From IMG/VR virus record IMGVR_UViG_3300036859_000185, positions 1 through 23,425 of that record: a stretch of 23,425 nucleotides of DNA; one strand, 5' to 3'. The notes under the pieces are model-generated. The model saw only the letters and a list, made by a program, of their open reading frames with translations, was not told the DNA's origin and did not search any database. Below, piece after piece: positions 18,022 to 23,423 of this stretch (within the stretch, counting starts at the first letter, position 1; every line of letters starts with the position of its first letter). The stretch comes from a virus. The translations under genes were made by a program, and so were the position numbers.

Positions 18022-18747
18022 TTATCTGCTCAACTGCCATAACCGATCATCCCATGCCGCCGGCACGAGCACGGCGTCAGAGTTCAGCATAGCGGCTGAG
18101 CCGTCAAACCTGCCGGTGCCGGCCGAGCGAGCAAAGTGTCTTTTCCAGCCCAGCCTCGCGCCGGTCAAGTGCTCGGTTGCCCACACGTCGTAGAACTGCC
18201 CGATGCCGGCGTCCCCCCAGCTTCGCCAGTTGTCGATCTGTTCGAGCAAAGTCCCGTCCAGATCATCGCCAAAGTCGCTGTCGTAGATGAGGGTGGAGGG
18301 GAACTGGATCGATGCCAGGCTCACCGGTCCGCGCCGGAACCTGGAGGCACCAGAACCACGGGCGTCTACGCCAGCACGGGAAAATGGGAAGCCGTTGACG
18401 ACGTAGTTGACCAAGTGGGCGTCTCTCGCGCGGGCTGGGTCGTGGTAGCCAATAGCGAACTCGAAGGCATCATCTCTGGTTTCATCCCCCAGATACGGCC
18501 GCAGCACTACGCACCACACCGGCCAGTTGTCGCCCTCGCCGACATGCCCTTCGCGCGGCACCAGGTCGTGGTAATCCCTGGCATAGGCATGGCTGGCGGT
18601 GATGATCTGCCGCTGGTTAGACAAGCAGACCGCCGCGCGGGCATTCTCCCTGGCGTGTTTGAGGGCTGGCAGCAGCAGCGACAGCAACACCGCGATCAGG
18701 AGGATCACCACCAAAAGTTCGATCATGGTGAAGGATCTTTCACACAC
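18022..18747 (-). CDS. Prepilin-like protein with N-terminal cleavage/methylation motif
   Basis: 241 residues. The GTG at 18747 is chosen because it keeps a short leader (MCERS) before the mature motif FTMIELLVV, with the conserved Phe at mature position 1 and Glu at 5. The ATG at 18726 would remove the leader. A hydrophobic helix follows (VILLIAVLLSLLLPALK), then HARENARAAVCLSNQRQIIT, typical of type II secretion or DUF1559 prepilin-like proteins. His204 with Asp215-Gly216 resembles the H-X9-DG motif of PVC proteins, with one extra residue. The usual Gly at -1 is Ser. It overlaps the terminase small subunit by 25 bases and lies between the two terminase genes, so it is an accessory cargo gene acquired by the phage. 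Confidence 0.88.
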   Translation of the reverse strand: MCERSFTMIELLVVILLIAVLLSLLLPALKHARENARAAVCLSNQRQIITASHAYARDYHDLVPREGHVGEGDNWPVWCVVLRPYLGDETRDDAFEFAIGYHDPARARDAHLVNYVVNGFPFSRAGVDARGSGASRFRRGPVSLASIQFPSTLIYDSDFGDDLDGTLLEQIDNWRSWGDAGIGQFYDVWATEHLTGARLGWKRHFARSAGTGRFDGSAAMLNSDAVLVPAAWDDRLWQLSR

Positions 18748-20430: not shown

Positions 20431-20892
20431 ATGGCACCCATTGATACCGTGAACGGACCCGCGCAGAAGATCGACCCAACCGAGCAGCGCAAGTCTCCCC
20501 CCAAGGGTGAGCAGGTCAAGCGCACCAGCGCCGAGCTGCTGGCGCTGTGGGACGGGCCGGACGGGGCCAAGGCGACTTGGAACAAGATCACCAAGCGGCC
20601 GGCCGCCACGTGCAACGAGACCATGCAGCGAGACGGGTCAGACGCCGACTTGTTCTCGGCGCTCGATCATGACGCTCGCGAAGCCGTCTCATGGCGCACC
20701 ACTGTCGTAGAGCGGCGGCGCAGACTGACCGGCTTGCCGATCGACGGGGTGTCGTCGTACGCCGATCGTCTGGCCGATTTCAAGGGCATCAACCTCGTGA
20801 TTGACGGGGAAATGTTCGATGGCGTCGCGCTCGCCAGCGCGCTGCGCAACCGGCGCAAGGCCATCCTGCACGGGACAGCTACGACCGGTTGA
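20431..20892 (+). CDS. Unknown 153-residue basic protein
   Basis: The ATG at 20431 is preceded by GGAAGG nine bases upstream; a longer in-frame start at 20317 would translate the structured leader and is rejected. The N-terminal 35 residues are Pro/Lys-rich and probably disordered (DPTEQRKSPPKGEQVKRTSA). A middle part LLALWDGPDGAKATWNKITK and a Cys-containing ATCNETMQRDGSD follow. The rest is helical (FSALDHDAREAVSWRTTVVE then RRRRLTGLPIDGVSSYADRL) and ends RNRRKAILHG. No family is recognised. It is isolated between two non-coding stretches with its own terminator, as expected for a separately expressed phage protein, possibly nucleic-acid binding given its basic nature. Confidence 0.8.
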   Translation: MAPIDTVNGPAQKIDPTEQRKSPPKGEQVKRTSAELLALWDGPDGAKATWNKITKRPAATCNETMQRDGSDADLFSALDHDAREAVSWRTTVVERRRRLTGLPIDGVSSYADRLADFKGINLVIDGEMFDGVALASALRNRRKAILHGTATTG

Positions 20893-20910
20893 TCCTGGTT
20901 GATCCTGGTT
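20887..20910 (+). repeat. Tandem repeat of GGTTGATCCT at the gene end
   Basis: Two full copies and four bases of a third copy of the 10-mer GGTTGATCCT run from 20887 to 20910. The TGA stop of the 153-residue gene lies inside the first copy. It is probably a slippage duplication; the repeat lies just upstream of the terminator. Confidence 0.8.
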
Positions 20911-20925
20911 ACCAAACCCCTAACA

Positions 20926-20960
20926 GACCCGCTCGTGCCAAAGCGCGGGCGGGTCATTTT
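20926..20960 (+). terminator. Rho-independent terminator after the 153-residue gene
   Basis: GACCCGC (20926-20932) pairs with GCGGGTC (20949-20955). The stem extends inward by five further pairs, two of them G-T, to a 6-base loop, followed by ATTTT. It lies 34 bases after the stop codon on the coding strand. Confidence 0.75.
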
Positions 20961-21118
20961 ACGCGACCGATCGAACGGGCGCACCATTGGTCCAAGTGAT
21001 GGACCGGGCGCTACTAGGTCGGCTGGCACCCCCGTACTTCACGGGGAGTACCGTACCGCTCGCTTGACAACCGAACCCCGATCAGACTTCCCAGCGCGGA
21101 CTAGACTCGCGCGTGCGG

Positions 21119-21148
21119 CACACACGCCCGTACATTGGGTAGTATACT
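21119..21148 (+). promoter_or_regulatory. Weak candidate promoter for the structured RNA
   Basis: TATACT at 21143-21148 is a good -10 match. The only -35 candidate is a poor CACACA at 21119-21124 with an 18-base spacer. If used, it would start an RNA near 21155 that ends at the terminator at 21940, about 785 bases. A TTGACA at 21064-21069 has no matching -10. Confidence 0.2.
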
Positions 21149-21154
21149 AGCAAA

Positions 21155-21940
21155 CACTGGACTAACACGCCAGAGTGCAGCGCGGTATCCTTGCCCGTAC
21201 GGATACAGGGTGCTATGGCGCGCGGGCGCTAGTTGACTGCCACGACGGAGTAAGACGAGCGCCATCTTTACCCCCACTATCGGGGCCATGGATGCGAGCT
21301 GGGACATACCGGCCAATCCCCACCGAAGGTGATCCGCATAAGCGAGCAAGCGCACAGCGCTCGACAGGCGTAGTGCGCGCCCCCGACGGGGCAGCGCGAA
21401 AGCGCCAGACCTCTTGCCGATAGCGGCCTTAACTTAGAGTAGGTGGGACGGTGCAGCAAGAGCAACGGTACGGCGACGGTGCAGATGATCGGGGCGGCGC
21501 GCTTTGCGTTTTAGAGCGCAGGTAAACCGTTCTTTCCCGCTATACGCGAGCGGACACACACCTTGCAGGCCAGCGATACGCCGACGGGCGCGATAAATGG
21601 CCAGCGTACACAACCACTAGCAATGGACGACGACACGGCTTGACGCAGGCATCCTGGTTGTCAGGGATGCACGCCAATCGTGGTGGGAGCCCTCAAAGCG
21701 TTCCCTAGATACCACCGTGTTGTCTCACACACGCACAGCCACGAGTGTACCTACATTCGTGCCTAGATATCCCTCGCGCTGGCTGAAACACGCCGGCGCG
21801 GGGCTTTATCGCCGTGCGCTTTAACGACAGGGCGCACAGCCGGCTGATGTGAGCCGAAAGGCCACGAATAAAGCCTAGGAGACGGTCTGTCTCCTGGTTG
21901 GGCTGCCGCCCCGGGCTTGTAGCTCTGGGCGGCGGTTTTT
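21155..21940 (+). ncRNA. Candidate large structured non-coding RNA
   Basis: No plausible gene lies between 20893 and 22087, yet the plus strand is dense with hairpins. They include GTATCC/GGATAC (21185-21206), ATGGCGC/GCGCCAT (21215-21265), GCCCC/GGGGC (21379-21392), GCGC-GAAA-GCGC with a GNRA loop (21394-21405), CCGCT/AGCGG (about 21539-21555), and GCATCCTG with a bulged CAGGGATGC (21649-21670). Further 3' are GGTG+GGGA with TCCC+CACC (21682-21715), CACGAGTG/CATTCGTG (21740-21761), a 12-bp stem (21772-21803), GTGCGC/GCGCAC (21814-21837), GCC-GAAA-GGC (21853-21862) and AGGAGAC/GTCTCCT (21877-21895). A strong terminator closes it. Size and ornateness recall the phage RNAs GOLLD and ROOL, but I cannot match either. 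The 5' end is uncertain; structure may begin at 21030 (CCCCGT/ACGGGG). Confidence 0.5.
21903..21940 (+). terminator. Strong Rho-independent terminator of the RNA region
   Basis: CTGCCGCCC (21903-21911) pairs with GGGCGGCGG (21927-21935). After one mismatch, the inner GGGCT/AGCTC (21913-21925) continues the stem to a 3-base loop, giving about 14 pairs. Five T residues follow (21936-21940). It reads on the plus strand and has no gene within 1 kb upstream, which is the best single argument that the upstream stretch is transcribed as an RNA. Confidence 0.88.
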
Positions 21941-22087
21941 ATGCTAAACAAACCACCATCACGACGACGGCCCGGACAGAATAAGTGGTCGTACTACTGC
22001 GACTTGCCGACGACCACGTGCTGCGCCCGCTTCTGCACAAACCCCGAGCATCCCAGCAGTTGGTATCCTGATGAAAAGGAGCAACCC

Positions 22088-22357
22088 ATGACACTAAAGG
22101 AGATCTGTGACGAACGCGCCAAAGAGCGAGCGCACGAGGAAGCCATGCACAGGCTAGAGCTGGAGCACAGCCGCAGATGGCAAGAAATAATCCGGCTCGC
22201 CATTGACACAATCCACAAAAACCTCCCTCAGGTTGTGCTGACACTCACTATCGCCGCCACTATCTGCTGGATAACCCTCCAGATCCGTATCGCCGACACG
22301 TCGAAGCCCAAACCAACACCAACCGCCGAGCAGATGTTCGGCATGGGGGGGAGGTAG
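22088..22357 (+). CDS. Small single-span membrane protein
   Basis: 89 residues from the ATG at 22088, with AAGGAG six bases upstream. The frame is open back to an ATG at 21941, but that start directly abuts the terminator T tract and has no binding site. A charged helix (MTLKEICDERAKERAHEEAM, then RLELEHSRRWQEIIRLAIDT) precedes one transmembrane segment VVLTLTIAATICWITLQIRI, and a Pro/Thr-rich tail ends EQMFGMGGR. Helix-then-span designs occur in phage holin-like or spanin-like proteins and in superinfection-exclusion proteins. The lysis role is only a possibility, since no endolysin is nearby. Confidence 0.8.
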   Translation: MTLKEICDERAKERAHEEAMHRLELEHSRRWQEIIRLAIDTIHKNLPQVVLTLTIAATICWITLQIRIADTSKPKPTPTAEQMFGMGGR

Positions 22358-23207: not shown

Positions 23208-23423
23208 ATGGTGAAGCCAAGAAGATCACCAAAGTCGTGGTCGGGATCGTGGTCGTGGTCGGGGTCGTGGTCGGGGTCGGGGTCGTGGTCGGGGTCGTGG
23301 TCGTGGTCGGGGTCGTGGTCGTGGTCGCGGTCGCGGTCGTGGTCGCGGTCGCGGTCGTGGTCGTGGTCGGGGTCGGGGTCGTGGTCGGGGTCGTGGTCGG
23401 GGTCGGGGTCGGGGTCGGCATGA
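23208..23423 (+). CDS. Ser-Trp/Gly/Arg dipeptide-repeat protein
   Basis: 71 residues. The ATG at 23208 lies one base after the stop of the DUF6948-like gene, and the TGA at 23421-23423 overlaps an ATG (ATGA), as in coupled genes. After MVKPRRSPK comes thirty Ser-X dipeptides (X = Trp 14, Gly 12, Arg 4) and a final Ser-Ala. It has no known domain. All six frames are open here, so this frame is only the one with a start and stop in conventional places. The alternatives are an Arg-Gly frame and a Val/Gly frame on this strand and Thr/Pro, Pro-Arg and Asp-X frames on the other. Confidence 0.5.
   Translation: MVKPRRSPKSWSGSWSWSGSWSGSGSWSGSWSWSGSWSWSRSRSWSRSRSWSWSGSGSWSGSWSGSGSGSA
23235..23418 (+). 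repeat. Thirty-copy TCGNGG hexanucleotide array
   Basis: Thirty uninterrupted hexamers TCGNGG run from 23235 to 23414, then TCGG. N is T in 14 copies, G in 12 and C in 4, never A. The only other change is one GGG to GGA in the second unit. Variation sits at one position, which is a four-fold degenerate third base for Arg (CGN) in one plus frame and for Pro (CCN) in one minus frame. No stop occurs in any frame. Confidence 0.97.

Follow-up and report, generated by a model that had tools for sequence, protein, structure and literature searches.

What occupies a 980-nt stretch of apparently gene-free sequence in an otherwise densely coding environmental phage genome? The question is raised by positions 20961-21940 (+ strand) of IMGVR_UViG_3300036859_000185, a whole IMG/VR virus record; the window analyzed here spans all 23,425 bases of it. 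Only very few noncoding RNAs of large size and elaborate structure have been described from phages, and what they do is an open question.

Relatives reach 38-45 kb, and the record thus probably represents only part of a genome. Genes for the terminase, portal, and major head protein lie on the - strand, and small + strand genes with unassigned products fill the right end; genes point leftward up to ~19810 and rightward from 20317. The terminase is at best ~36% identical to those of deposited phages, and the major capsid protein has no relative among them, indicating a poorly sampled phage lineage. A search of 84,980 genomes returned no relative of the major capsid protein, so that evidence for a prophage is absent. 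The source phage is probably lytic. Beside the terminase gene, 18022-18747 (- strand) encodes a pseudopilin-like DUF1559 protein (domain score 32.9 bits against a Pfam cut-off of 23.3; N-terminal methylation motif just under its cut-off). This domain is very common in Planctomycetota, and the phage host may therefore belong there. A simple GGTCGT/GGTCGG repeat of ~190 bases (23237-23423) closes the contig, and the assembly may have stopped at this point.

Absence of coding signal

A first-pass annotation had described 20961-21940 as free of genes, and this description holds. With codon usage learned from the long frames of the contig itself, an independent scan gives 20869-22069 (1.2 kb) as the longest stretch of the window that lacks coding signal; the genome is otherwise dense. 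Each of the three + frames of 20961-21940 contains 8-12 stops, and the longest six-frame ORFs in the region, at 82-84 aa, are without support. The next plausible rightward gene start, near 22089, is an ATG accompanied by an AGGAG-like site and lies ~150 bases past the terminator at the end of the region, a distance that makes the region look unlike an attenuated mRNA leader. ARAGORN detected no tRNA genes in the window, which belongs to a record that is probably a fragment, and a tRNA array was rejected on this basis.

Terminators and predicted fold

Two intrinsic terminators bracket the region on the + strand. The upstream terminator (20926-20960) comprises a 13-bp stem (20926-20938 paired with 20943-20955), a CAAA loop, and a trailing AUUUU, and from its sequence appears to close the preceding rightward gene or transcription unit. 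The downstream terminator (21902-21940; pair probability 0.98) has a stem of 15 pairs, G-U included (21902-21917 paired with 21921-21936), with one C-U mismatch, a UGU loop, and five T residues (21936-21940). It had previously been described as a perfect 14-pair terminator followed by five T; the strength and the T run stand, but "perfect" overstates the pairing. With a 13-bp terminator just before it and a 15-pair, U5 terminator at its end, the region has the appearance of its own rightward transcription unit. The final part of the upstream gene, directly ahead of the first terminator, contains a tandem repeat, GGTTGATCCT (20889-20911), that may serve as an operator or promoter.

Folding of the + strand gives a minimum free energy of -435 kcal/mol, compared with -391 ± 9 kcal/mol for 60 dinucleotide shuffles (z -4.77). 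A repeat with 20 dinucleotide shuffles gave -394 ± 10 kcal/mol (z -4.26), and 12 shuffles gave z -3.65; the complementary strand reaches only z ~-1.5. Eleven other 980-nt segments of the window, folded on both strands (22 combinations), range from z +2.3 to -2.9, and none of these samples from the genome thus matches the energy excess of the + strand of 20961-21940. The earlier impression of a hairpin-dense sequence is likewise confirmed: when perfect stems of 6 bp or more that do not overlap are counted (loops of 3-10, G-U pairs permitted), the + strand contains 14, totaling 106 bp, whereas shuffles average 7.5 stems and 51 bp and none of 100 exceeds 81 bp. On the - strand, the hairpin count is within the range of its own shuffles. 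High-confidence base pairs (189 on the + strand, 106 on the - strand) are not above shuffles (129 ± 46).

The proposed structured noncoding RNA unit (20961-21940, + strand, with an inferred 5' end; z -4.3 to -4.8, no coding signal) is predicted to fold into two domains. The 5' domain opens with hairpins at 20967-21052 (a three-segment hairpin, 20967-21022, and a second, 21025-21052; pair probabilities 0.93-0.98), followed across 21053-21555 by two long-range helices, 21053-21063 paired with 21546-21555 (p 0.92) and 21076-21084 paired with 21486-21494 (p 0.99). These helices enclose several hairpins, one of which, GCGC-GAAA-GCGC (21394-21405), carries a GNRA tetraloop. Nested long-range 8-bp helices of this kind are not unusual, occurring in 532 of 2000 shuffles (27%). 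The 3' domain (21611-21900) is closed by CAACC/GGUUG (21611-21615 paired with 21896-21900; p 0.91) and contains a 13-bp arm with two hairpins (21624-21637 paired with 21716-21729; p 0.92). Its most structured part, 21731-21899, consists of five hairpins: 21737-21764, 21766-21810 (12-bp core), 21811-21840, 21842-21875, and 21877-21895. The fourth of these is capped by the second GNRA loop, GCC-GAAA-GGC (21853-21862), so that both GNRA-capped hairpins noted in the first-pass annotation are present.

A candidate pseudoknot, found by inspection, would join the two domains. The entire eight-base loop GGUUGUCA (21656-21663; stem 21649-21654 paired with 21665-21670) is the exact complement of the linker UGACAACC (21065-21072), which lies between the two long-range helices of the 5' domain, and the two could form 8 Watson-Crick pairs. 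A loop-to-unpaired match of 8 was observed in 0 of 100 shuffles.

Within the 3' domain, 21802-21875 shares with type III hammerhead ribozymes the succession of CUGAUG, a stem, and CGAA, together with a hairpin enclosed by the helix GGCUUUA/UAAAGCC. However, the conserved hammerhead core CUGANGA...GAAA with A15.1-U16.1 is not found at 21844-21869, where U replaces A9, the 15.1-16.1 pair has the opposite orientation, and stem I stops short of the core. A loose descriptor of the hammerhead shape has 45 matches in 3 Mb, a frequency consistent with chance, and Rfam gives no match; the assignment was therefore rejected.

Having no reading frame and beyond-chance structure on one strand, the region conforms in kind to a large structured phage noncoding RNA. 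Strand-specific energy, flanking terminators, absence of a frame, and the candidate pseudoknot together lend good support to the original proposal that the + strand encodes a structured noncoding RNA, and a functional structured RNA, whatever its length, quite likely lies within 20961-21940. In the model favored here, a rightward noncoding RNA gene of ~0.9-1 kb, independently terminated, would produce a transcript with two domains, one 5' (~20961-21607) and one 3' (~21611-21900), the latter very stable; the two would be docked by the 8-bp loop-linker pseudoknot, and the transcript would end at the terminator at 21902-21940. During infection the RNA would most likely act in trans, serving by itself or together with protein as a structural or scaffold RNA, much like GOLLD and ROOL, and not as an mRNA leader. 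We infer its transcription, 5' end, three-dimensional docking, and trans-acting role from the features above; the scaffold-type role is suggested by analogy.

Extent of the RNA and alternative readings

The structure signal is uneven, with the excess concentrated in 21731-21940. Folded separately, 21731-21899 scores z -6.34 on the + strand, with 0 of 200 shuffles as good; its - strand also folds well (z -4.9), as strong hairpins do. The larger segment 21600-21899 (+ strand) scores z -4.75. This excess toward the 3' end (z -4.75 to -6.3 within 21600-21940) is what would be expected if only the 3' part (~21611-21940, 330 nt) were functional, as a compact terminated small RNA preceded by 600 nt of promoter, leader, or filler. 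Two segments of the upstream part, 21281-21590 and 21391-21590, indeed fold no better than shuffles when taken alone (z -0.5 and +1.5). Such a restricted RNA is conceivable, but we consider it doubtful: the 5' 630 nt as a whole (20961-21590) beat 60 of 60 shuffles on the + strand (z -2.6), which the - strand does not, the candidate pseudoknot links 21065-21072 to a loop of the 3' domain, and the upstream terminator finishes right at 20960, just before the proposed longer unit. The full two-domain, terminated noncoding RNA is accepted here with moderate confidence. Counted against it are the modest z of the 5' 630 nt, the folding of the 3' segment on the - strand, the unremarkable number of confident pairs, and the lack of a homologue in the searches described below; the fact that no sigma-70-like promoter was found also weighs against it.

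The region lies near the switch in gene direction and contains palindromes, for example TAGTATACTA at 21140, as might a replication origin, a packaging or recombination site, or a regulatory region whose hairpins function at the DNA level or as protein-binding sites. A DNA element of this sort is nevertheless very unlikely. That the excess structure is specific to one strand is explained by G-U pairing in RNA but not by hairpins in DNA; RNA terminators bracket the region on the same strand, and no iteron-like repeats were found.

Relatives and comparison with GOLLD and ROOL

Searches of all Rfam 15 families with cmscan, on both strands, gave no match at the gathering score, nor did searches at E ≤10 with lax filters match any family, including GOLLD, ROOL, and OLE. 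No homologue was identified by blastn against phages and plasmids. Protein queries located related loci for the terminase (2) and the major capsid protein (21), and none for either of two early proteins (0 and 0); a terminase alignment search added 80 distant loci. The capsid relatives are 21 viral contigs with 44-61% identity in the best segment. Capsid and terminase relatives were fetched, the longer records being covered in large part, and contained no counterpart of the region by blastn or nhmmer. A single-sequence covariance model of 21732-21942 (the 3' domain) likewise found no counterpart. Energy scans of the relatives' early regions, one of them with 8 shuffles each and used only for picking candidates, yielded coding sequence or repeats among the candidates inspected, and these regions, where scanned, are mostly coding. 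Searches for exact motifs in viral contigs and in genomes gave either nothing or matches at the level expected by chance. Phages related by capsid and portal are thus without a recognizable counterpart, and the element is an orphan at present sampling depth, in viral, phage, plasmid, and genome collections from which records very close to the window may have been omitted. Phage early regions turn over quickly, and the missing conserved relatives would suit a remnant of early genes, decayed or fast-evolving, in which GC-rich sequence happens to fold, but this is the least probable reading of all, given dense stops in all + frames, no coding signal, and energies, hairpin counts, and a pseudoknot match that all lie above dinucleotide shuffles.

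The closest known RNAs for comparison are GOLLD and ROOL, long, pseudoknotted, phage-borne RNAs that assemble into RNA-only cages (PMC12286853). GOLLD, found in phages and prophages and often >800 nt long, has a loop-linker pseudoknot and a GAAA loop (PMC12286853). The region described here resembles it in size class, phage location, GAAA loop, and loop-linker pseudoknot, the last a candidate in this case. GOLLD is also divided into separate domains, its 3' region being conserved and its 5' region variable (PMC12286853); here too the 3' part is the more stable and the 5' part the looser, although in GOLLD the contrast is one of conservation. ROOL, a large RNA of phages and prophages with many stems and pseudoknots (PMC12286853), shares with the region its large size, phage origin, numerous stems, and, if the candidate is correct, a pseudoknot. 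In contrast to both, the region has no Rfam match. The tRNA association that is common, but not universal, in GOLLD is absent from the window, as is the tRNA island of ROOL. The suggestion that it might be a new member of the GOLLD or ROOL family is therefore not borne out, there being no Rfam match even at E 10 and no tRNA nearby, and neither name is assigned.

A bolder proposal is that the region is the first representative of a giant phage RNA class that is new and separate from GOLLD and ROOL, built of two pseudoknot-linked domains and forming an RNA-only or RNA-protein assembly while the phage grows lytically. We regard this as unlikely on present evidence. A further large structured RNA unrelated to the known ones, in a phage that is probably lytic, would point to repeated origins of giant phage RNAs and offer an independent system for testing what they do.

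Three gene-free segments were encountered in the relatives during these scans. In a distant terminase relative, ~500 nt (L121:14709-15215) fold strongly (z -3.95, 100 shuffles) and match neither Rfam nor, by blastn, any phage; this is possibly another orphan structured phage RNA. A capsid/terminase relative carries repeated inverted units of the GCGTAGGAAAAAGTCCTACGAACAAG type with a high folding excess (L041:3671-4254). Finally, L100:1160-1800 contains many palindromes of the TTACCTACAGTAAC type upstream of a phage terminase, which are possibly repressor operators.
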